Source: Deltaproteobacteria bacterium (GTDB lineage: Bacteria > Desulfobacterota > Desulfobacteria > Desulfobacterales > Desulfosarcinaceae). Taken from it: a stretch of 64,000 nucleotides of DNA. Made by a program: the position numbers and the translations under genes. This document shows, piece by piece, positions 5,875 through 58,115 of this stretch (positions are counted from its first letter, which is position 1; each line of letters opens with the position of its first letter). The stretch spans positions 1 through 64,000 of the forward strand of contig JAKALP010000019.1 in NCBI GenBank assembly GCA_021824175.1. The letters are read 5' to 3'. The notes beneath the pieces are model-generated. The model had not been told where the DNA came from. It did no database searches and worked only from the letters and a program-made list of their open reading frames with translations.

Positions 5875-6432
5875 CTATTCTTTCTCTTCGGTCTCGGGGA
5901 TCACAAACAGCGCTTCGATTTCGGCCATGACCGTCTTCTCGTCGGTCTTGCGGGCCATGGAGAGCTCTTTGATCAAGAGAGTGTAGGCGGTATCGTATAG
6001 TTTGCGCTCACCAAAGGACAAATCCTTGGTGTGTTTGAGCAGAGAGAGATCCCGAAATACTTCGGCCACCTCGTAAAGGGAGCCGGTCTTGATCTTGTCC
6101 ATATACTCACGATAGCGCCGGTTCCAGGTTTGGTTATCGATGGCCATATCGCGCTTGGCGCGCATGACATCCATAATTTTGGGAATCTCTTTTTCTGGAA
6201 TCACATCGCGCAATCCCACCGACTCGACGTTGGATGTGGGAATCATGATGACCATGTTATTTTCAATGATCTTCATGATGTAGAAGTCATGTTTCTCCCC
6301 GTTCACCACTCTGGATTCAATGGCGTCGATGCGGCCAACGCCGTGAGCTGGATAGACGGCCAAGTCACCAACTTTGAATCGCCCTGATTTGGATTTCTGG
6401 GGAGCAGACTTTTCTTCGGTGGATTTTGTCAT
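5875..6432 (-). CDS. CarD-family transcriptional regulator
   Basis: A 185-residue protein with the CarD/CdnL RNA-polymerase-interacting domain at the start (FKVGDLAVYPAHGVGRIDAIE), followed by the helical DNA-contacting region (YREYMDKIKTGSLYEVAEVFRDL and LSFGERKLYDTAYTLLIKELS). These proteins bind the RNA polymerase beta subunit and stabilise open complexes at promoters such as those of rRNA genes. A Lys/Ser-rich extension of about 20 residues precedes the domain. The gene begins the unit with rluD and is separated from hppA by a terminator. CarD-like regulators are widespread in Desulfobacterota. Confidence 0.92.
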   Translation of the reverse strand: MTKSTEEKSAPQKSKSGRFKVGDLAVYPAHGVGRIDAIESRVVNGEKHDFYIMKIIENNMVIMIPTSNVESVGLRDVIPEKEIPKIMDVMRAKRDMAIDNQTWNRRYREYMDKIKTGSLYEVAEVFRDLSLLKHTKDLSFGERKLYDTAYTLLIKELSMARKTDEKTVMAEIEALFVIPETEEKE

Positions 6433-8636: not shown

Positions 8637-9236
8637 TTACTCCTCCATTTGATTGCTCAACTGTTGATTAAATCGGTTCATGGCTTCTTTGCTACCTACT
8701 TCTAAAATCGTCACGATCGCGTCGCAAGACCGTTGGAGGAACTCTTTCATTACCGCGGTTTCATCCTTACTAAAAGTACTGAGCACATGATCCACTACAT
8801 TGCGGCCGTCACCGGAGCGCCCGATTCCCAGACGCACCCGGACGAAATCTCCTCCTCCGAAAGCGCCGATGATCGATCTTATGCCTTTGTGTCCGCCATC
8901 GCCCCCTTTCTCCTTGATTTTTAATCTTGTAAACGCCAGGTCGATGTCATCATGGACCACGACCATTGCTTCGGTTTGAACCTTAAAAAAATTGGCCAGT
9001 TGTTGCAGGGGCGGGCCGCTGCGGTTCATGAACGCCTGGGGTTTTGCCAGGATAACTTCCCGATCGCGGATCTCGCCCCTGCCGTACACCACATCAAATT
9101 TACGCCGTTGCAACTCAATCCGGTGAATCTGCGCCAAGGCATCGATCACCATGAAGCCGGCATTGTGCCGCGTGCGGGCATACTCGGGTCCAGGGTTGCC
9201 CAAACCGGCGATCAAAAAGGTCCCCTGTTCAGGCAT
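8637..9236 (-). CDS. pth: Peptidyl-tRNA hydrolase
   Basis: A 199-residue enzyme that frees tRNA from prematurely released peptidyl-tRNA. The start GLGNPGPEYARTRHNAGF contains the catalytic His (RHNAG) and the conserved substrate loop; KPQAFMNRSG and VVHDDIDL (catalytic Asp) follow, as does KGGDGGHKGIRSI. Length and motif order are normal. It lies 28 bp after rplY on the same strand and directly abuts hppA downstream. The rplY-pth pairing is a classical arrangement. Confidence 0.96.
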   Translation of the reverse strand: MPEQGTFLIAGLGNPGPEYARTRHNAGFMVIDALAQIHRIELQRRKFDVVYGRGEIRDREVILAKPQAFMNRSGPPLQQLANFFKVQTEAMVVVHDDIDLAFTRLKIKEKGGDGGHKGIRSIIGAFGGGDFVRVRLGIGRSGDGRNVVDHVLSTFSKDETAVMKEFLQRSCDAIVTILEVGSKEAMNRFNQQLSNQMEE

Positions 9237-9264
9237 GGGTCACGACAGCTCCCTCGGGTGGCTG

Positions 9265-9912
9265 CTATTCTTCCTCAGCCTTCTCAGTTTCAGCCGCCGC
9301 AGCCGCATCACCGGCTTCACCCTCTTCACCCTCAGCCACTACTTCCGCTTCGCGCTTGGCCGCGGAAATCGTCAGAATGGTGAAGTTCACCTCATGGGGG
9401 ATCTCGATGTTGCCCTCGATTTTGATGTCTTCGACGTGGAAGGCCTGGCCGATGTCCAAGTTGGTGACGTCAACGGTGATGGCATTGGGGATCTCGTTGG
9501 GCAGACAGAAGACCTCCACATCCCGACGAACCATCTGCAGCACGCCGCCGTTTTCCACGCCCACGGGCCTGCCGGTCACTACAACCGGAATCTTGACCCG
9601 GATCTTGCGATCCATGGAGACTTCATAGAAATCCACATGCAGCAGATCCTTGGTGACCGGATCAATCTGAAGCTCCTTGATCATGACTGGTTTGGCGGCT
9701 TGGCCTCCATCCACAAACAGGCTGATCACCGAACGACCCAACCCACCTTTATTAAGAATAAGTTCCAGATCCCGTGTTTGAAGGGCTATCATGCTGGGTG
9801 GTGTTTTGGGGCCATACAGAACCGCTGGCATTTGACCGCCGCGGCGCAACGCCCGAGCCGGACTGTTCCCCTTGGATTTCCGGGTTTTGACTTGAAGTTC
9901 GATGGTATTCAA
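9265..9912 (-). CDS. rplY: 50S ribosomal protein L25/Ctc
   Basis: A 215-residue two-domain L25 (Ctc type) that binds 5S rRNA. The N-terminal domain (IELQVKTRKSKGNSPARALRRGGQMPAVLYGP) is the 5S-binding beta barrel, and the C-terminal TL5/Ctc domain follows (DVEVFCLPNEIPNAITVDV), ending in an Ala/Glu-rich tail. The start is taken as TTG at 9912, because GGAGGA lies 6-7 bases upstream of it; the GTG 24 bases earlier would place the Shine-Dalgarno inside the gene. It sits between prs and pth on the same strand, a conserved order. Confidence 0.94.
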   Translation of the reverse strand: MNTIELQVKTRKSKGNSPARALRRGGQMPAVLYGPKTPPSMIALQTRDLELILNKGGLGRSVISLFVDGGQAAKPVMIKELQIDPVTKDLLHVDFYEVSMDRKIRVKIPVVVTGRPVGVENGGVLQMVRRDVEVFCLPNEIPNAITVDVTNLDIGQAFHVEDIKIEGNIEIPHEVNFTILTISAAKREAEVVAEGEEGEAGDAAAAAETEKAEEE

Positions 9913-9940: not shown

Positions 9941-10894
9941 TTAAACGAACAGGGATGTCACCGAATCGCCCCGGTAGCTGCGGATGATGGCTTCCCCTAT
10001 CAATTCGGCGATGGATAGTACCTTGATTTTCTCGCAAGCCGCCGCAATGGGTGAAATGGGGATCGTGTCAGTGACCACCAAGGTCTTAATCCCTGATGCT
10101 TGGATGCGTTCAATGGCAGGCCCGGATAAAACCGCATGGGCGCAACAGGCATGCACCTCCACGGCACCCTTCTCCAGCAGGACGCCCGCAGCTTCCGTCA
10201 GCGTCCCAGCCGTATCCACCATATCGTCCAGGATGATGGCGGTTTTGCCTTTCACATCGCCGATAACGGCCATGGCTTTGGCCTCGTTAGGGGCGGTGCG
10301 TCGTTTGTCCACAATGGCCAGGGCGGCCCGCAGGCGCTTGGCAAAGGCCCGGGCGCGCTCAACGCCTCCGGCATCGGGGGATACCACCACGATGTCATTG
10401 ATGAAATTGCTGCGTATGTATCTCAAAAGGACGGGCGCGGCAAAAAGGTTGTCCACGGGGATATTGAAAAAACCTTGGATTTGCCCGGCGTGCAGGTCCA
10501 TGGTGATGATACGGTTGGCGCCGGCGGTGGTCAGCAGATCGGCCACGAGCTTGGCGCTGATGGGCACCCGCGGCGCTACTTTCTTGTCTTGTCGGGCATA
10601 GCCGTAATAAGGAATGACCGCCGTGATCCGGCTGGCGGAGGAGCGCTTCATGGCGTCGATCATCAGCAACAGTTCCACCAAATGATGACTTACCGGAGAA
10701 CAGGTGGATTGGATGATAAAAACATCCTTGGTGCGCACATTGTCATCGATCTCGATTTGGATTTCACCATCGCTGAAAGTGCTTACCTTGGCACCGCCCA
10801 ACGGCATCTTCAAATATTCGCAAATCCGCTTCGCCAAGGCCAAATTGGAATTCCCAGAAAAAACCCAGAAATCGTTGAGCGTTCTACTTGCCAC
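9941..10894 (-). CDS. prs: Ribose-phosphate pyrophosphokinase
   Basis: A 317-residue enzyme making PRPP from ribose 5-phosphate and ATP, feeding purine, pyrimidine, histidine, tryptophan and NAD synthesis. Visible family motifs are [10 protein letters not shown] near the N-terminus, the signature region [20 protein letters not shown] and the PRPP-binding loop [14 protein letters not shown]. Length is standard. The stop lies about 30 bp before the rplY start, and a tRNA-Gln gene lies upstream on the same strand. Confidence 0.96.
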
Positions 10895-10957
10895 GACGTT
10901 ATCACTCCCCTTTACCGCAACGATTTGATCCCTTAACCGCCCCCATCGGGCAAAAAA

Positions 10958-17530: not shown

Positions 17531-17983
17531 ATGATGGGTAAATATATTTCGAGCACACGGATTATCGTGATGGCCGCCGCCCTGGCGCTATGCCTGATGC
17601 CAGCCATGGTCTTGCCCGCGGCGGCGGAGGATTTCGTGGTGGTGGCCCACAAGGATCTGGGCGTGAGCGCCGTTACTTCCGCGGAGCTTGAGTCCATCTT
17701 CCTGGGCAAGATGAGCACCTGGTCTTCGGGAGAAAAGGTCACCATCGCCATTTTGGATGAAGACGCCACCCTGGAGAAATTCCTGGCAAAGTATGTCCAC
17801 AAGACTGCTTCCCAATTCAATAACTACTGGAAGCAGATGGTCTTCACCGGCAAAGCCGGCATGCCGGACACGTTTAAGACTCCGGCGGAGATCATCTCCT
17901 TTGTGGGCTCACATCCGGGAGCGATCTCTTTTGTTCCGTCCGCCGCCGCCAGCGGCGCCGTTAAAACCTTGACGGTCAATTAA
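17531..17983 (+). CDS. PstS-like periplasmic substrate-binding protein, copy 1
   Basis: A 150-residue secreted protein: signal peptide of about 34 residues ending MVLPAAA, then a 116-residue domain beginning AEDFVVVAHKDLGV. The domain resembles a half-size phosphate-binding protein of the PstS/PBP-like family (LESIFLGKMSTWSSGEKVTIAILDE, GAISFVPSAAASGAVKTL). It is far shorter than a true PstS of about 320 residues, so the role in phosphate uptake is doubtful; such short proteins are often paired with outer-membrane proteins. AAAGGAGGAGC precedes the ATG. The porin gene follows 17 bp later. The mature domain is almost identical to that of copy 2, while the signal peptide is different. Confidence 0.85.
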   Translation: MMGKYISSTRIIVMAAALALCLMPAMVLPAAAEDFVVVAHKDLGVSAVTSAELESIFLGKMSTWSSGEKVTIAILDEDATLEKFLAKYVHKTASQFNNYWKQMVFTGKAGMPDTFKTPAEIISFVGSHPGAISFVPSAAASGAVKTLTVN

Positions 17984-18000
17984 TGGAGGGGGTGATTCCC

Positions 18001-19188
18001 ATGAAAAAACTATTTCTTCTGATGGCAGCCATATTCATGGCGTTTACTTTGGGCGCTCTTGACGACGCTCAGGCAGGAACTGACCTGGGAGGCGTTCAGA
18101 TTCACGGCTTTATCTCCCAGGGATTTCTTTACACCGACACTTACAACTACCTGGCCAATGACACCAAAGACGGCAGTTTCGAGTACAACGAGATGGGCAT
18201 CAACTTTGGCAAGCAGTTAAATGACAAGCTGCGCATCGGCATGCAACTGTTTTCCCGCGATCTGGGCGATGCCGCCAATAATAAAGTCACGGTGGATTGG
18301 GCCTATGCCGACTACCGGTGGCAAGATTATCTGGGCCTGAGAGCCGGCAGGATCAAGTTGCCCATTGGCTTTTATAATGAAACTCGTGACATGGACATGC
18401 TGCGCACCAGCATCGTCTTGCCCCAGGGCATTTATAACGACCTGCTGCGGGACAACATGATCGCCGCCAATGGGGTAAGCCTATACGGTAACGTGGGCCT
18501 GAAGGCTGCCGGCAGTCTTGAGTACCAATTGCTCGCCGGCGTCACGCAAGCCGATGTGGATAACGGCGTGGGCAAGTACACGAACAGTGGTTTGGCTCCT
18601 CTGGGTGGGACCCTTGACGGAGATATTAAAAGCGATACAAGTTACGCTGGAGCCTTGCGCTGGGAAACACCGCTGAAGGGTCTCAGGGTGGGGTATTCCA
18701 TTATTAACTCGCCCTTCATTCAAGTGCCTGTCCGGTTTGGCGCAATGCCCTTAGAGATAGACGCAAGCAGAAATGTTCAGATCTATTCCGCTGAATACAC
18801 CTGGCGGGATCTCATTGTGGCGGCCGAATACATGATCCGGAAGGATGAATCGACCATCATGGGTCTAACGACCTCCACAACCGCTGAAAGCTACTATCTA
18901 TCGGCCGCCTACCGATTTGTCGATTGGTTTACCTTGGGCGCTTACTATTCGGAGTTCTATCCGAATAAAGATCACAAAGACGGTGACAACCTGGCTATTG
19001 CCAATAATGCCTGGGAAAAGGATTTGGCCCTGACCCTGCGCTTCGACATCAATGACTACTGGATTTTTAAAATCGAAGGGCACGCCGTCAACGGCACGGC
19101 CAATGTCCTATGTTCGGATAATCCCGGCAACGACTTCGCCGACAGCCAGTGGTATTACGGCGCGGCCAAGCTCTCCTTCAGTTTTTAA
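18001..19188 (+). CDS. Porin-like outer-membrane protein, copy 1
   Basis: A 395-residue beta-barrel protein with a signal peptide (LFLLMAAIFMAFTLGAL, cut near AQAG). The mature protein alternates polar and apolar residues, has repeated aromatic-girdle patterns (GLRAGRIKLPIGFYNE, YSAEYTWRDLIVAAEYM) and ends in SFSF with a C-terminal Phe, the usual outer-membrane assembly signal. The ATG at 18001 follows GGAGGGGG; an earlier in-frame ATG overlaps the previous stop. It is paired with the PstS-like gene and followed by a terminator. Residues 25-160 are very similar to copy 2, whereas the middle third, probably surface loops, has diverged. Confidence 0.85.
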   Translation: MKKLFLLMAAIFMAFTLGALDDAQAGTDLGGVQIHGFISQGFLYTDTYNYLANDTKDGSFEYNEMGINFGKQLNDKLRIGMQLFSRDLGDAANNKVTVDWAYADYRWQDYLGLRAGRIKLPIGFYNETRDMDMLRTSIVLPQGIYNDLLRDNMIAANGVSLYGNVGLKAAGSLEYQLLAGVTQADVDNGVGKYTNSGLAPLGGTLDGDIKSDTSYAGALRWETPLKGLRVGYSIINSPFIQVPVRFGAMPLEIDASRNVQIYSAEYTWRDLIVAAEYMIRKDESTIMGLTTSTTAESYYLSAAYRFVDWFTLGAYYSEFYPNKDHKDGDNLAIANNAWEKDLALTLRFDINDYWIFKIEGHAVNGTANVLCSDNPGNDFADSQWYYGAAKLSFSF

Positions 19189-19357: not shown

Positions 19358-19527
19358 CACCGGGGCTAAAGTAAGTCACGGAAAGGGCGATATTGCCAAT
19401 GGGCATCTAATGCAGGCCCCAGCTTCCAGCTTCTTGCAGACCATTCACAAAGAAGAAGTATGCGATGAAAATCAACCCATACGTGGCAAGAAAGTTCGTA
19501 AGCAATTACGCACAACAGGAGGAGCAA
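19358..19527 (+). promoter_or_regulatory. Leader element of PstS-like/porin module, copy 2
   Basis: The second copy of the leader described at 17361. Here the G run CCGGGGCT can pair with GGCCCC downstream, closing a structure around the TGCC-AATG-GGCA hairpin. The pairing partner differs from copy 1 but remains G-rich against C-rich, a weak hint of structural conservation. Key motifs of known GEMM-type riboswitches are not matched. Confidence 0.4.
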
Positions 19528-19980
19528 ATGAATCAAAAACTAAAATTAAGCACAAGGATCGCAATGGTGCTATTCGCACTATGGGTCTGCCTGCTGGTGG
19601 CTAACGCCAAGCCAGCGGCGGCGGAAGATTTCGTGGTGGTGGCCCACAAGGATCTGGGGGTAAACACCGTTACTTCCGCGGAACTTGAGTCCATCTTCCT
19701 GGGCAAGATGAGCACCTGGTCTTCGGGAGAAAAAGTCACCATCGCCATTTTGGATGAAGACGCCACCCTGGAGAAATTCCTGGCAAAGTATGTCCACAAG
19801 ACTGCTTCCCAATTCAATAACTACTGGAAGCAGATGGTCTTCACCGGCAAGGCCGGCATGCCGGACACGTTTAAGACTCCGGCGGAGATCATCTCCTTTG
19901 TGGGTTCGCATCCGGGAGCGATCTCTTTTGTTCCGGCCGCCGCCGCCAGCGGCGCCGTTAAAACCTTGACGGTCAATTAA
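19528..19980 (+). CDS. PstS-like periplasmic substrate-binding protein, copy 2
   Basis: A 150-residue paralogue of the protein at 17531. The ATG at 19528 follows AGGAGGAGCAA; in-frame codons further upstream belong to the leader. The signal peptide (RIAMVLFALWVCLLVANAKPAAA) is unrelated to that of copy 1, but the mature 116 residues differ at only about three positions (for example GVNTVTS against GVSAVTS). This contrast suggests recent duplication or gene conversion limited to the mature domain. The porin gene follows with the same spacing as in copy 1. Confidence 0.85.
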   Translation: MNQKLKLSTRIAMVLFALWVCLLVANAKPAAAEDFVVVAHKDLGVNTVTSAELESIFLGKMSTWSSGEKVTIAILDEDATLEKFLAKYVHKTASQFNNYWKQMVFTGKAGMPDTFKTPAEIISFVGSHPGAISFVPAAAASGAVKTLTVN

Positions 19981-19997
19981 TGGAGGGGGTGATTCCT

Positions 19998-21203
19998 ATG
20001 AAAAAAATATATCTTCTAATCGCGGTTGTATTCATGACCTTATCTTTGGGCGCGCCCCACGGCGCCCTGGCGTATGACCTGGGAGGCGTACAGATTCATG
20101 GTTTTGTCTCACAGGGATTTCTTTACAGCGATGACTACAACTACCTGGCCAACGACACCAAAGACGGCAGTTTTGAATATAACGAAATGGGCATCAACTT
20201 CGGCAAGCAGTTGACCGACAAGCTGCGCATCGGCCTGCAACTCTTTTCCCGCGACCTGGGCGATGCGGCCAACAATAAAGTCACCGTGGACTGGGCCTAT
20301 GCCGACTACCGCTGGCAGGACTATCTGGGCCTGCGGGCCGGACGAATCAAGCTGCCCATGGGTCTGTACAACGAAACCCGGGATATGGATATGCTGCGCA
20401 CCAGCATCGTCCTGCCCCAAGGAATTTACAATGACCTGCTGCGGGACAACCTGATCGCCATCAATGGGGTCGGTCTTTACGGCAATACACGCATGGGAGG
20501 GGCCGGCAGCCTCGACTACCAGGCGCTCGTCGGCGTTGTACAAACAGACCCGGATAGCGGCGTAAACAAGCTTACAAACGATGGATTATCCAGTGTTCAG
20601 GGCCAAGTCACAGGTTCACCCCAAAACGATACCTCCTACGTCGGCGCACTGCGCTGGGAGACGCCGTTATCGGGGCTCAAGCTTGGGTACTCCATTTTTT
20701 ATGAAACAGATGTGATAATGCCGATATCCATACTTGATGGCGCTATACAAACAAGCTTTGAGGGCCCGGTGACCATCCAAATCGCTTCCATTGAGTATAC
20801 GTGGCGCAATCTGGTGGTGGCGGCCGAATACATGCATCGGCGCGCCGACAGCACGATATTATCCAATCAAAGAATCACCAAGGCGGAAAGCTATTACCTG
20901 ATGGCCTCCTACCGTTTTAACGATTGGTTCACCTTGGGCAGTTACTATTCGGAATTCTACCCGGACACCGAAGATAAGGATGGATCGGAAGCCACGGTCA
21001 ACAACGTACCCTGCAGCCATAGGGCCTGGGAGAAGGATCTGGCGCTGACCCTGCGCTTCGACATCAACGACTACTGGGTGTTCAAGATTGAAGGGCACTC
21101 GGTTAACGGCACGGCCAATGTCATCGTGCTTGATAATCCTGGCAACGACTTCGCCGACAGCCAGTGGTATTACGGCGCGGCCAAGCTCTCCTTCAGCTTC
21201 TAA
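19998..21203 (+). CDS. Porin-like outer-membrane protein, copy 2
   Basis: A 401-residue paralogue of the porin at 18001, with signal peptide, barrel-like alternation and a C-terminal SFSF. The start follows GGAGGGGGTGATTCCT. The N-terminal 130 mature residues and the last 60 or so are nearly the same as in copy 1, including NYLANDTKDGSFEYNEMG and NDFADSQWYYGAAK. The centre (about residues 185-290) differs strongly and contains small insertions, as expected for exposed loops under different selection. A terminator like that of copy 1 follows. Confidence 0.85.
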   Translation: MKKIYLLIAVVFMTLSLGAPHGALAYDLGGVQIHGFVSQGFLYSDDYNYLANDTKDGSFEYNEMGINFGKQLTDKLRIGLQLFSRDLGDAANNKVTVDWAYADYRWQDYLGLRAGRIKLPMGLYNETRDMDMLRTSIVLPQGIYNDLLRDNLIAINGVGLYGNTRMGGAGSLDYQALVGVVQTDPDSGVNKLTNDGLSSVQGQVTGSPQNDTSYVGALRWETPLSGLKLGYSIFYETDVIMPISILDGAIQTSFEGPVTIQIASIEYTWRNLVVAAEYMHRRADSTILSNQRITKAESYYLMASYRFNDWFTLGSYYSEFYPDTEDKDGSEATVNNVPCSHRAWEKDLALTLRFDINDYWVFKIEGHSVNGTANVIVLDNPGNDFADSQWYYGAAKLSFSF

Positions 21204-53902: not shown

Positions 53903-54919
53903 CTAATTCTTCTCCCAATACTCATCCGGCATATCCACGGCCAGGGCCAATGCGCCGGCGGCGCCGCCGAAGAGCGGATCGGAGATGACGCTCACCCGGC
54001 ACGGGCCGATCTCGCGCAGAGCGCCTTCCAGGTACTCGCGCAGCCCCCGGATTTGGCTGCCGCCGCCCGCCAGAGTAATGTTGTTGCGTACCTTTTTCTG
54101 GAACTCGGGATCAAAACCGGCGATGAGATCCAACGTGGTTTCCACCATGCCGGGCAGAATGCTTTCACAAGCCTGGCGCATTTCCTTGGTGATATCGTGC
54201 ATGGTGGGCTTGCCATCCACGGGCAGTTCCACCATCACCGGATGGGGCGGCTCGCCCACAAAGCTGTACTGCTCCTTCATGCGCCGCACCATGGTCGGGG
54301 TAAAGTCGGCTTTGGGGTAACGCTCGTGCAGCATCATTTCCAGTTGCTGGTCGATGTAGTCACCGGCGGCCAAAATGGTGCGCTGATCTACTTCAGAAGG
54401 CATGGTGCCGTGCATGATGCAAAAATCGGTGGTGCCGGCGCCGATATCGATGATCATGGCATTGTTCAGAGCATTGATTCCATAGGCCACGGAAAAAGGC
54501 TCCGACACCACCATGATGGCATCGGCAAAATCCGCCACCAGGCGTTTGATGGCCAGCTTGTTGATTTTGAAAGATTCGGCCGGCACGCCCACAATGGCCC
54601 GGGTCTGTTTGTAGCCGTTATCGGCCTTGGCCATCTGGATCAGATGCCGGATCAACTCCTTGACCGCGGCTTCGCTGCGTTCCGAGCCATCCTTGATGAC
54701 GCCGCGTTCCAGGGGCCGGAAGATTTCAAGGGAAAGCCGGTTTTCCAAGGCTTCCTCGCCGAACAGGACCGGTTTCCCCAGGACCTTCTGGGCAATGAAA
54801 TCCTTGGGCCAGCCCACATAACTCTCCACCCACTCTTTGCTGCCGTTGCTGGCCGCGATGGCGCTGCGGGATGTTCCCAGATCGATACCGATGTTTAGGA
54901 CTTCTTTATTTTCGCTCAT
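53903..54919 (-). CDS. MamK-like bacterial actin
   Basis: A 338-residue actin-fold ATPase. Phosphate-1 is GIDLGTSRSAIAAS, phosphate-2 is DIGAGTTDFCIMHG and the adenosine motif is GGGSQIRGLREYLE. The chain matches MamK, the filament that aligns magnetosomes, more than MreB, ParM or FtsA: VGWPKDFIAQKVLGKPVLFGEEAL, a region followed by LERGVIKDG, VSEPFSVAYGINALNNAMIIDIGAGTTDFCIM and the end MPDEYW recall MamK's equivalent stretches. Its ATG overlaps the end of the amidase gene by 14 bp, so the two are translationally coupled. No other magnetosome gene is in view. A role in positioning an organelle or the wall machinery is plausible but unproved. Confidence 0.82.
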   Translation of the reverse strand: MSENKEVLNIGIDLGTSRSAIAASNGSKEWVESYVGWPKDFIAQKVLGKPVLFGEEALENRLSLEIFRPLERGVIKDGSERSEAAVKELIRHLIQMAKADNGYKQTRAIVGVPAESFKINKLAIKRLVADFADAIMVVSEPFSVAYGINALNNAMIIDIGAGTTDFCIMHGTMPSEVDQRTILAAGDYIDQQLEMMLHERYPKADFTPTMVRRMKEQYSFVGEPPHPVMVELPVDGKPTMHDITKEMRQACESILPGMVETTLDLIAGFDPEFQKKVRNNITLAGGGSQIRGLREYLEGALREIGPCRVSVISDPLFGGAAGALALAVDMPDEYWEKN

Positions 54920-56063
54920 TTTGCTTTACTCCACTTAGGGTTTTAAAGTGTTGTACGTCTAAGTAATTGCCCACCCCTTCCTCGATATACGACGCGATCT
55001 GCGCGCGATATTCGGCCGAGGCGAGCTTTTTCTCCTCGTTCTTCTGGGTAAGACAAGAGATCTCCACCAGCACGCTGGGTACCTCAATCTGGGATAGAAC
55101 CACAAAGGGCGCCATCTTGATGCCGAAATCCTTGACCTTGGCATCGTGGTGCTTCACGTTGCGGAAGAGACTATCCTGAATGGAGGCCGCCAAGCGCGCC
55201 GACTCCTGCCGTTTCACGGTATTGCCGATGTCCTGGACAATGGCGTCCAGCTCCCGAATGGTGTAGTGGGACTCCTTGTTCTCCTGTTCGGCCAGCTGCA
55301 GGGTATCGGAGGTTAGAGGCGGGCCGAAGTAATAGGTTTCGATGATATTGACCGCACGGTCGGGCAGCGAATTGACATGCACCGAGATAAACAAATCAGC
55401 TTTGTGCTCCTTGGCAAAGGCCACCCGCTCGGCCAGGGAGAGGGTGCGGTCTTCGGTGCGGGTCAGCAGAATATTATAACCGCCCTGCTTTTGCATGGAT
55501 TCCTTGAGCCGTTGGGCCACATCGAGCGTGATCTCTTTTTCCTTGATGCCGTGGAGGCCGATGGCGCCAGGGTCGGCTCCCCCATGCCCCGGATCAATGA
55601 TGATGGTTTTGACATCCAAACCGAACAAGGTCGAGAGCCGGATATGATCATTGCCTGAAAGCAAAAGATTATAATCGGCCACTTTTTGATCTCCGGGCAA
55701 ATCAAAATCCCAGATGGGGATCTGCTCCATCACGCTGGCCCCATCCGGTTCCTGGGTCTGCGGCTGAGCAGCAGCCATGGCTTTATTCGATGGCGCCAGC
55801 CCCTTGACGGCCGCCGTGGCGGCCGGCTGGGCCGCGGGAGCATGCACGCGGCTGTTGGACACGGACCAGCCGTGGAACGAAAAAGATACGATGGCCAGAC
55901 CCAGTACGATAAGCAATGCCCGTCCTGTTTTCCGGAAAAGCGGACGCTGAAGCAATGTCGGACGCTCCTGAGGCAGCTTTCCAGACATCCGCATGTTGTC
56001 CAAATAAACCCCTTTAAGCATGGCGGTCTTGGGGTTTTCAGTGCGTCGACGGTTTAACCACAT
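54906..56063 (-). CDS. N-acetylmuramoyl-L-alanine amidase (AmiC type)
   Basis: A 385-residue cell-wall hydrolase. A transmembrane anchor (ALLIVLGLAIVSFSF) lies near residues 49-63, so the enzyme should sit in the periplasm. The amidase-3 domain (from about residue 150) has the zinc residues in IIIDPGHGGADPGAIG, GIKEKEITLDVAQRL and FISVHVNSLPDRAVN, with the catalytic Glu in VEISCLTQKNEEKKLA. It cuts the bond between muramic acid and the stem peptide. No AMIN domain is present. The start is uncertain: the ATG at 56063 is only weakly preceded by AAAGGA. It is the first gene of a coupled pair with the MamK-like gene. Confidence 0.9.
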   Translation of the reverse strand: MWLNRRRTENPKTAMLKGVYLDNMRMSGKLPQERPTLLQRPLFRKTGRALLIVLGLAIVSFSFHGWSVSNSRVHAPAAQPAATAAVKGLAPSNKAMAAAQPQTQEPDGASVMEQIPIWDFDLPGDQKVADYNLLLSGNDHIRLSTLFGLDVKTIIIDPGHGGADPGAIGLHGIKEKEITLDVAQRLKESMQKQGGYNILLTRTEDRTLSLAERVAFAKEHKADLFISVHVNSLPDRAVNIIETYYFGPPLTSDTLQLAEQENKESHYTIRELDAIVQDIGNTVKRQESARLAASIQDSLFRNVKHHDAKVKDFGIKMAPFVVLSQIEVPSVLVEISCLTQKNEEKKLASAEYRAQIASYIEEGVGNYLDVQHFKTLSGVKQNERK

Positions 56064-56492: not shown

Positions 56493-56496
56493 CTAC
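56402..56496. repeat. Pair of GGTGC-type palindromes
   Basis: GTAGGGTGCATTCCATGCAC (56402) and GGTGCGCGAAGCGCACCC (56476-56493) are two members of the dispersed family. The second supplies the TAG stop codon of the minus-strand gene that ends at 56493. Confidence 0.75.
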
Positions 56497-58115
56497 AAAT
56501 CCAACTTCTTCCGGCATGCCAGCGCGAAGTCTTCTGGATAGTGGCCATTGATCCAGCGCAGTTGGGCCTCGCTGAAGGCGCCCGGCGATTCGGGCAGGCG
56601 GGGCAGAAACACGTAGAGCAACCGTTGATCATCTTCTTTGATATGAAAGCGCTTGCTGTATTCGATGACTGTGATCATGGCCGCGCCCAGGGCGGTTAAA
56701 ACCTGCATGGCGGTCAGCAAGGCACGATCCAATGATGCCCTGACGGCGGTGTCCGCTTCCAGGATGTTGCCCACGGCACCGCGGGGCATCAGCTGCAGTT
56801 CCCACTGGGAGGTCTGGGCTTTGGGCACAAAGAGCAGCACGTGCTCGTCCTGGTGCACGATCAAATCCCTGGGGCGGTCGCCGCGGCCGTCCATGCGCTT
56901 GTTGGCGGCGATGGCCGCTTCATAGCATTGGAAAAAGGAGCGGCCGGTGCGACGCCGGTATTCCCGGACAAACTCCTGGATCATGTCCCCGCAGGCAAAA
57001 GCGGGCAGCTCCATTTGACGTTCGGGGTCGGCCACCGTGGCCGGAATCAAGGCATACTGTTGGTGGATCTGCTGATGGGAGGCATGCAACCGGTAGCCAT
57101 TGGGAGCATAGTCAAAGCCATAGTTCCAGCCCCAGAGCGTGGCGCTGAAGGGCAGAGCGGAAGCCTTTTTCTTCTGCTGCAACGCGCCCAGGATCGCCTG
57201 CCGCATCTGCTCCAGTTCATCGGCGCTCACTTCGCGGCGCCGGGACGATGGCGCCAACCCCAGGTCTTCGGCCACGCGCACATAGGTGCGTTGGTAGTAC
57301 AGATGACGCAGCCCTTGGATGTCGGTGGCGCTCAAATCCGCGGCCGCATAGCGCACGCTGTCGTGGGCCATGTTGGCCGCGTAGTGGCCCCAGGGAATAT
57401 AGCTGTTGCGGCGCAGATACTCGTAGATGTGACTGCCCTCGTGCCGCCACTCAGCCGTGATCTCGCTTTGGCCCTGGACGCCGGGCCGCAGCACCATGGC
57501 CTCTTTGTATGCATCGGGCAGACAGGGATTGTTGGCCACGGAGTCAAAGAGCTGCTCATCCGAAATCCGGGGCCGGAAGCCGCCGTTGCCATTGACTTCA
57601 AACACCAGCCCTTCGGGCGCGCCGGTGGTGGGATTGAGGATAAATTCACAGCAGCTTTGCGCCAAAGGAATCAAATCCTGGGCATCGGTGGAAGTTGCGG
57701 CCAGGGCCAGTTTCAGCGGTCGTGGCAACGATTGAATGAAACCGGCGCTCCGCCCGGCTCCCAGCTGCGGCTCAGTGATCTGGCTGAGGGAAGCCTGGGG
57801 CCGTTGGGCTATGGCGATGCGGCTGATGTCGGCCGCCGCACGGTCGGCCCAGCCCTTGCCGATATAAGTCGTCCCCTTGAAGTCAAAGGCGTTGGCGATT
57901 TCATAGATTGGGTCCGCCCCAGGTTCGTTGACATCACCAGACGGAAAGTTGACCGCATTGTCGCAAATGTCGCCGGCCGGCGTGCGGCCCAACGTCATCC
58001 GATCATCCGCCACGCGCAGGTTGGCCACCGAAAAACGGGGCAGATGTAAACCAAAGATGAATCGCCCTTCGGGGGCCACACAGGTTCGCAAGGGGGGCAA
58101 AGGTTTATTACTCAT
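56493..58115 (-). CDS. Large protein of unknown function, possibly HIT-like
   Basis: A 540-residue soluble protein with no signal peptide, starting at ATG 58115 (MSNKPLPPLRTCVAPEGRF). I do not recognise it as a named family. The region ATLWGWNYGFDYAPNGYRLHASHQQIHQQYALIPA, with spaced His residues, and the later DLIVHQDEHVLLFVPKAQTSQWELQLMPRG recall galactose-1-phosphate uridylyltransferase/HIT proteins. The middle has AEWRHEGSHIYEYLRRNSYIPWGHYAANMAHDSVRY, rich in aromatic residues and His. This reading is tentative. It is alone between the amidase unit and the histidine kinase, and its stop comes from a repeat palindrome. Confidence 0.7.
   Translation of the reverse strand: MSNKPLPPLRTCVAPEGRFIFGLHLPRFSVANLRVADDRMTLGRTPAGDICDNAVNFPSGDVNEPGADPIYEIANAFDFKGTTYIGKGWADRAAADISRIAIAQRPQASLSQITEPQLGAGRSAGFIQSLPRPLKLALAATSTDAQDLIPLAQSCCEFILNPTTGAPEGLVFEVNGNGGFRPRISDEQLFDSVANNPCLPDAYKEAMVLRPGVQGQSEITAEWRHEGSHIYEYLRRNSYIPWGHYAANMAHDSVRYAAADLSATDIQGLRHLYYQRTYVRVAEDLGLAPSSRRREVSADELEQMRQAILGALQQKKKASALPFSATLWGWNYGFDYAPNGYRLHASHQQIHQQYALIPATVADPERQMELPAFACGDMIQEFVREYRRRTGRSFFQCYEAAIAANKRMDGRGDRPRDLIVHQDEHVLLFVPKAQTSQWELQLMPRGAVGNILEADTAVRASLDRALLTAMQVLTALGAAMITVIEYSKRFHIKEDDQRLLYVFLPRLPESPGAFSEAQLRWINGHYPEDFALACRKKLDL

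Follow-up and report, generated by a model that had tools for sequence, protein, structure and literature searches.

A 64,000-nucleotide stretch of a deltaproteobacterial genome of the Desulfosarcinaceae (GenBank assembly GCA_021824175.1, contig JAKALP010000019.1, positions 1 to 64,000; hereafter the window) encodes an actin of the MamK family whose gene overlaps that of an N-acetylmuramoyl-L-alanine amidase immediately upstream (Table 1). We found this actin–amidase pair at 43 loci, in the same order and on the same strand in all 43, with 11 loci in the Desulfobacterota and the other 32 in the phylum to which an Acidobacteria metagenome-assembled genome (MAG) belongs. Since the pairing recurs at 42 loci besides that of the window, it is not a matter of chance; it is old and selective, and the two genes are a conserved two-component module. 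Both proteins belong to known families, and their combination was not found described in the open-licence literature that we searched. We consider it fairly likely, judging from the sequences, that a MamK-type filament grips the cytoplasmic tail of the amidase and would in this way place wall hydrolysis. An initial annotation of the window had reported the two open reading frames (ORFs) with their overlap, which we recovered at exactly the given coordinates on the minus strand, and had named the actin as MamK-like.

The assignment to MamK over MreB is borne out by profile, structure and tree comparisons. The window actin scores 422.9 bits against the NCBIfam MamK model NF040964, passing its cut-off of 400, versus 49–77 bits against three MreB-type models with cut-offs of at least 293. 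A sequence search of the PDB returned 285 bits to the MamK chains 5jyg, 5ljw and 5ljv, compared with 55 bits for the best MreB chain, and the closest fold to the predicted actin structure (mean predicted local distance difference test score, pLDDT, 92.5) is MamK 5ljv, with a template modelling (TM) score of 0.93 and 40% identity. The residues of the MamK-type nucleotide motif, D158 and E140-P141, are present, and D13, E140 and D158 are invariant across 40 aligned relatives. Two other identities were tried and rejected: MreB, which reached 77 bits at best and forms a separate clade (100/100) in the tree, and BeeR, whose model NF053558 gave 200 bits, under its cut-off of 530. The same genome also encodes a separate, normal MreB (499.6 bits). 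When ten other pair members were scanned with NF040964, five passed the cut-off (414–435 bits) and five fell short of it (350–390 bits), the former being of the Desulfobacterota type and those just short of the cut-off belonging to the Acidobacteria-type clade.

Phylogenetic analysis showed that the paired actins form one clade, with a support of 94 in a 42-row tree and of 98/93 in a careful tree of 30 rows, for which 21 rows had been dropped; the partial actin of locus L201 was excluded from both. This clade stands outside MreB, in keeping with the assignment above, and likewise excludes the desulfobacterial (Desulfamplus-type) magnetosome-type MamK, the MamK of AMB-1, Bbp-type proteins and archaeal sequences, with the deeper branching order within MamK being poorly supported. 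The group that we took for Bbp-type, outside which the window actin falls, carries an inferred label, as no named Bbp sequence was compared. On sequence grounds, the window actin is thus a member of a MamK-family paralogue group and not an orthologue of the magnetosome MamK. Actin positions specific to the paired clade include V86, G78, W37, F166 and T261.

Some further members of the family were seen in these searches. Actins 39–45% identical occur in six MAG contigs whose titles name Poseidonia or Euryarchaeota (L080, L081, L082, L083, L085 and L086, the match beginning at 6001 in each), possibly through misbinning; L081 and L083 have a large upstream gene and a downstream gene in common beside this actin. 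Four genomes hold two MamK-family genes close together, some of which may be Mad28-like (L062, at 8843-9817 and 9955-10938; L207; L208; L209), and in one genome of the order the MamK-family gene is split between two reading frames (L058, 5191-6073), either because the copy is broken or perhaps through an error in sequencing.

The extent of the pairing was established in overlapping genome samples. Among 60 Desulfobacterota genomes, the NF040964 cut-off was exceeded in seven, including the window's own, and the amidase lies directly upstream of the actin in six of these, five in the window's genus and one more in its family; the seventh MamK-positive genome (G040) has no amidase upstream. Wider searches added pairs in the order (L059, L060, L061), elsewhere in the phylum (L200, L201) and on a 3,276-base contig of an uncultured Acidobacteria MAG (L072). 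Throughout the phylum of that MAG, the actin was present in 32 of 327 genomes, with the amidase immediately upstream in all 31 besides L072. Conversely, at the 39 loci examined for other genes of the MamK family the amidase was never found (12 + 14 + 13 over three locus sets), a count that leaves aside ten MamK-positive genomes (G181, G200, G228, G299, G339, G362, G372, G391, G512 and G627) and includes loci close to contig ends (for example L067, L073 and L074). Among the loci overall, L084 and L071 are seemingly one contig, and G067 and G332 contribute two apiece. One scan of genome contigs matched at least 80 loci; of the 80 among the matches listed, 15 were MamK-like and only those were used. 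The median gap between amidase and actin was 24.5 bases over 42 loci with rule-based starts. Its range, from -208 to 94, reflects the choice of starts by rule or by cutting near the tail motif described below, the latter applying to the amidases of the window, of L201 and of a few other loci, whose starts were set at the start codon nearest that motif.

A reverse search with an amidase profile gave the same picture. In the 327 genomes, full-length matches occurred in 30, all of them among the 32 actin-bearing genomes (among the matches listed); the other two carry truncated amidase frames, at a contig edge in G1026 and as a short frame in G1017. All other amidase-profile matches, again among those listed (at or above about 274 bits), begin at profile position 36 or later, mostly at 50 or later. 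Co-occurrence of actin and full-length amidase across these genomes gave a Fisher's exact p of 2e-40 with the two truncated cases counted as misses, a value to be read as a description and not as a strict test because the genomes are related. Similarly, the full-length amidase was confined in the 60 Desulfobacterota genomes to the same six that carry the paired actin. Distances between amidases agreed with those between actins (Mantel r 0.91, n=37, with none of 5000 permutations as high; L201, L270, L288, L271, L061 and L056 left out). L284 and L285, from the phylum of the Acidobacteria MAG, nest among Desulfobacterota pairs in both the actin and the amidase trees, which suggests that the pair was transferred as a unit. 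Additionally, genome G775 combines an actin that is sister to the paired clade (L073) with an amidase bearing a tail of the same kind, encoded unlinked on a different contig. This amidase was found at 1165-2262 of L246.

The amidase itself has an N-terminal region that sets it apart. Its sole Pfam domain is Amidase_3 (PF01520, 162.5 bits), and the predicted fold is closest to E. coli AmiA (8c2o, 31% identity). H160, E175, H229 and E334, which we take to be the catalytic residues, are invariant in 28/28 sequences, so enzyme activity appears to be under selection. The structural model comprises a helix at residues 11-26 of moderate confidence, a membrane helix, a low-confidence stretch to about residue 141 and then the catalytic domain. 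Mean pairwise identity in nine amidases (near-identical rows L056 and L061 left out) is 0.49 in the tail formed by residues 12-29, nearly that of the catalytic domain (0.58), and falls to 0.15 for the membrane segment and to 0.13 for the linker (67-128); a stretch as conserved as the tail within residues 1-128 had a permutation p of 5e-5. Across 28 aligned sequences, tail position 12 is always Lys or Arg and position 23 always Asn, with positions 15, 16, 19 and 20 hydrophobic or Ala throughout. No AMIN domain, the mark of the septal AmiC type, was found before the catalytic domain with Pfam at E 0.001. The genome encodes a second, longer amidase (a 704-aa frame on contig C32) that may be of the AmiC type.

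A profile of the tail gave one strong match in 7/7 pair-bearing genomes and nothing comparable in three pair-free genomes; beyond the seven amidases, the best match to any other protein in these ten genomes had an E of 0.012. A motif pattern, written after viewing the sequences, fits 39 of the 43 pair amidases, the misses being one-residue variants (L271, L286) and truncated frames (L270, L288). The pattern fits only one of 21 control frames from other amidases, examined over the 40-150 residues before GHGG, and that one is L246 of G775. The 48 residues before the hydrophobic core hold 12 positive and three negative charges; given this excess and the positive-inside rule, the tail should be cytoplasmic. 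The two proteins would then probably share a side of the membrane only through the filament and this tail. Where an enzyme is inherited with one particular actin, the simplest explanation of such a conserved tail is a docking site for that actin. The conserved tail thereby gives the filament–enzyme link a plausible physical basis.

Taken together, these features lead us to propose the following arrangement. The actin would polymerise with ATP into a cytoplasmic filament, with the amidase as its dedicated membrane client. The first ~30 residues of the amidase would remain cytoplasmic and bind to the filament, a single helix would cross the membrane, and the linker would be flexible enough for the catalytic domain to reach the peptidoglycan. 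By collecting the enzyme, the filament would hold amide-bond cleavage at chosen sites of the wall, and the amidase would in turn anchor the filament to the membrane. The process served is probably cell separation or local wall remodelling, and sequence does not discriminate among separation, shape and the insertion of an envelope structure. More tentatively, and with odds that we put slightly below even, an actin directly gripping a peptidoglycan hydrolase, one polypeptide reaching from filament to wall, may amount to a minimal and apparently horizontally mobile two-gene machine that positions wall cleavage and is common to Desulfobacterota and Acidobacteria-type genomes.

The pairing, the co-inheritance, the common clade, the domain order predicted for the amidase, the conserved tail and the intact active-site and nucleotide-binding residues are observed, and several points weigh against building a tethered hydrolase upon them. 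Topology, filament formation, contact between tail and filament, placement of hydrolysis and the process served are all matters that we infer. The tail helix is modelled at moderate confidence only and is not unusually amphipathic, its helical moment being no higher than that of shuffles; the same result lends no support to a membrane-binding amphipathic helix and makes a protein-binding motif the likelier of the two. The co-occurrence counts come from related genomes and are not independent. Carriage is patchy, with the pair in 5 of 11 genomes of the window's genus, so that the function must be dispensable. The initial annotation's suggestion of a filament working with peptidoglycan remodelling is upheld and strengthened: the pairing, the clade and the tail, which that annotation had not mentioned, support it, and the filament, the contact and the function are its predicted portion. 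Neither outcome that the annotation named as refuting it was seen, since the pair is present in related genomes and its actins do not group with MreB. We found no support for its alternative, the positioning of an organelle.

Overlapping or closely spaced genes by themselves indicate co-expression, and the pair has apparently moved between phyla as a unit (L284, L285), as would a co-regulated cassette whose products make no contact and in which the tail acts only as a membrane-targeting or topology signal. We regard this as unlikely, though the best of the alternatives, since an ordinary topology signal needs neither an Asn in 28/28 sequences nor a Lys or Arg in 28/28. Moreover, outside the catalytic region nothing in the amidase is conserved except the tail, which is probably also its sole portion on the same side of the membrane as the actin, and the sister actin of G775 keeps a tail-bearing amidase even when the genes are unlinked. 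Less probable still is that the amidase serves chiefly as a membrane anchor for a filament doing another job, such as shape or positioning, with wall cleavage secondary; the architecture of the tail would suit an anchor equally well and the pair has no further conserved partner gene next to it, but the invariance of the catalytic residues in all 28 amidases speaks against it. Across 39 loci we found no third operon partner recurring across lineages, with a simple gene caller that took antisense frames at several loci and could miss a short gene.

We also asked whether the actin could be a magnetosome MamK, left over from or still serving a magnetosome system, as its family name and the clusters of same-order genomes, in which MamK accompanies MamB/MamM-like and MamN-like genes, might imply. 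Two profiles, one of MamB/MamM (A3) and one of a second cluster gene (A4), were built from L077, L068 and L069, clusters beside magnetosome-type MamK of which one is from a Desulfamplus MAG; the cation diffusion facilitator (CDF) protein of the clusters used for A3 resembles MamM/MamB, yet scores below the cut-offs of those models. The best A3 match in the whole window genome was 88 bits, and six further genomes with the pair gave 91–186 bits, G324 being the highest of them at 186, against 588, 582, 389 and 215 bits in four control genomes of the order with magnetosome-type MamK, of which the two top values come from genomes that contributed to the profile. A4 matched none of the seven pair-bearing genomes, the window's included, and three of the four controls. 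Two controls, G063 (L068) and G113 (L069), match both profiles by construction because they supplied profile rows, which leaves G158 and G284 as the independent ones, G284 being missed by A4. By these two markers there is no magnetosome-grade relative in the window genome, MamE, MamI, MamQ, MamA, MamO and MamP having been left unsearched genome-wide. With both profiles negative and the paired clade apart from magnetosome-type MamK, a magnetosome role or remnant is largely refuted and we consider it very improbable. The absence of magnetosome context noted in the initial annotation therefore holds both for the neighbouring genes and, with two markers, for the genome.

Comparison with known systems places the pair among several relatives. 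The window actin resembles MamK in its family score, its identity to 5ljv and the nucleotide motifs DxGxG and EP, as given in PMC10653835, and differs in its separate clade, the lack of magnetosome genes by two markers and the constant amidase neighbour. Bbp ('big bacteria protein') is described in PMC10580974 as a MamK-related actin of giant bacteria without magnetosomes, including Desulfobacterota; in Ca. Electrothrix gigas its gene accompanies those of a hypothetical protein and of a Kelch-domain protein. It shares with the window actin the position of a MamK relative outside magnetosome bacteria; the presumed Bbp-type loci (L057 and L063-L067) are 40-43% identical but sit in another clade and have no amidase. 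BeeR is a MamK-related actin of Verrucomicrobiota, bacteria without magnetosomes, and has a disordered N-terminal extension, which the window actin does not (PMC11929497); its structure 8r2n shows 29% identity in the fold match. The word amidase does not occur in PMC10580974, PMC11929497, PMC10653835, PMC12713370 and PMC12645912, and we found no description of a MamK–amidase pairing among the listed papers of the open-licence literature on MamK, bacterial actins and amidases.

Turning to the enzyme, the catalytic fold is like that of E. coli AmiA and AmiC (8c2o, 4bin), from which the window amidase differs by its membrane anchor and conserved tail, with AMIN not found by Pfam. The S. aureus LytH-ActH complex (7tj4), recovered as a fold match, likewise joins an Amidase_3 enzyme to a dedicated partner. 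LytH is membrane-anchored; its partner ActH, unlike the actin here, is a membrane protein that carries an extracellular domain. A link between an actin-like protein and amidase control exists in the FtsA-FtsEX-EnvC-amidase route. That route is indirect and runs through several proteins, whereas here one polypeptide would span the distance from filament to wall.

The annotated neighbours closest to the pair are groES, groEL, alanine dehydrogenase, alanine racemase, a histidine kinase and a sigma-54 regulator. Just upstream on the same strand lies a 540-aa ORF (56493-58115) that neither Pfam nor NCBIfam matched at E 0.001. Elsewhere in the window, a two-gene unit is duplicated in tandem (17531-19188 and 19465-21203, 90% identity over 864 bases and 80% over 325 bases), the first gene of either copy having no Pfam match at E 1e-5. 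A viral origin found no support, with no matches in a single scan of viral contigs sensitive to close relatives only.

Table 1 Coordinates of the actin–amidase pair and its features in the window.
Feature	Position	Strand	Basis
MamK-family actin, 338 aa	53903..54919	-	NF040964, 5jyg match, fold model, invariant residues
N-acetylmuramoyl-L-alanine amidase, predicted membrane-anchored, 385 aa, upstream partner	54906..56063	-	Pfam Amidase_3
14-bp overlap of amidase stop and actin start	54906..54919	-	TAA 54906-54908, ATG 54917-54919
GGAG, ribosome-binding-like, 9 nt before actin ATG, within amidase gene	54929..54932	-	Sequence; putative role
Amidase_3 catalytic domain, residues 154-365	54969..55604	-	Pfam match, invariant residues, fold
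Variable, mostly disordered linker, residues 63-142	55638..55877	-	Most residues with pLDDT under 50
Predicted transmembrane helix, residues 41-62	55878..55943	-	Model helix, charge bias
Conserved amidase tail, residues 12-29, proposed filament-binding motif	55977..56030	-	Conservation; model helix 11-26

MamK is known as the filament of the magnetosome, and one branch of its family is here accompanied at 43 loci by a cell-wall-cutting enzyme. Neither of the two magnetosome markers had a match of magnetosome grade in the seven pair-bearing genomes examined. The pairing across two phyla suggests that a filament inside the cell directs the site at which the enzyme cuts, and if the amidase tail binds the filament, a bacterial actin would be linked directly to wall hydrolysis. 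The pair thus offers a simple and testable partner for MamK relatives outside magnetotactic bacteria. The finding also bears on the origin of the magnetosome filament. If the more tentative reading of a two-gene machine is true, that filament would be a single specialised application within a wider MamK family, the remaining branches of which organise membrane and wall.
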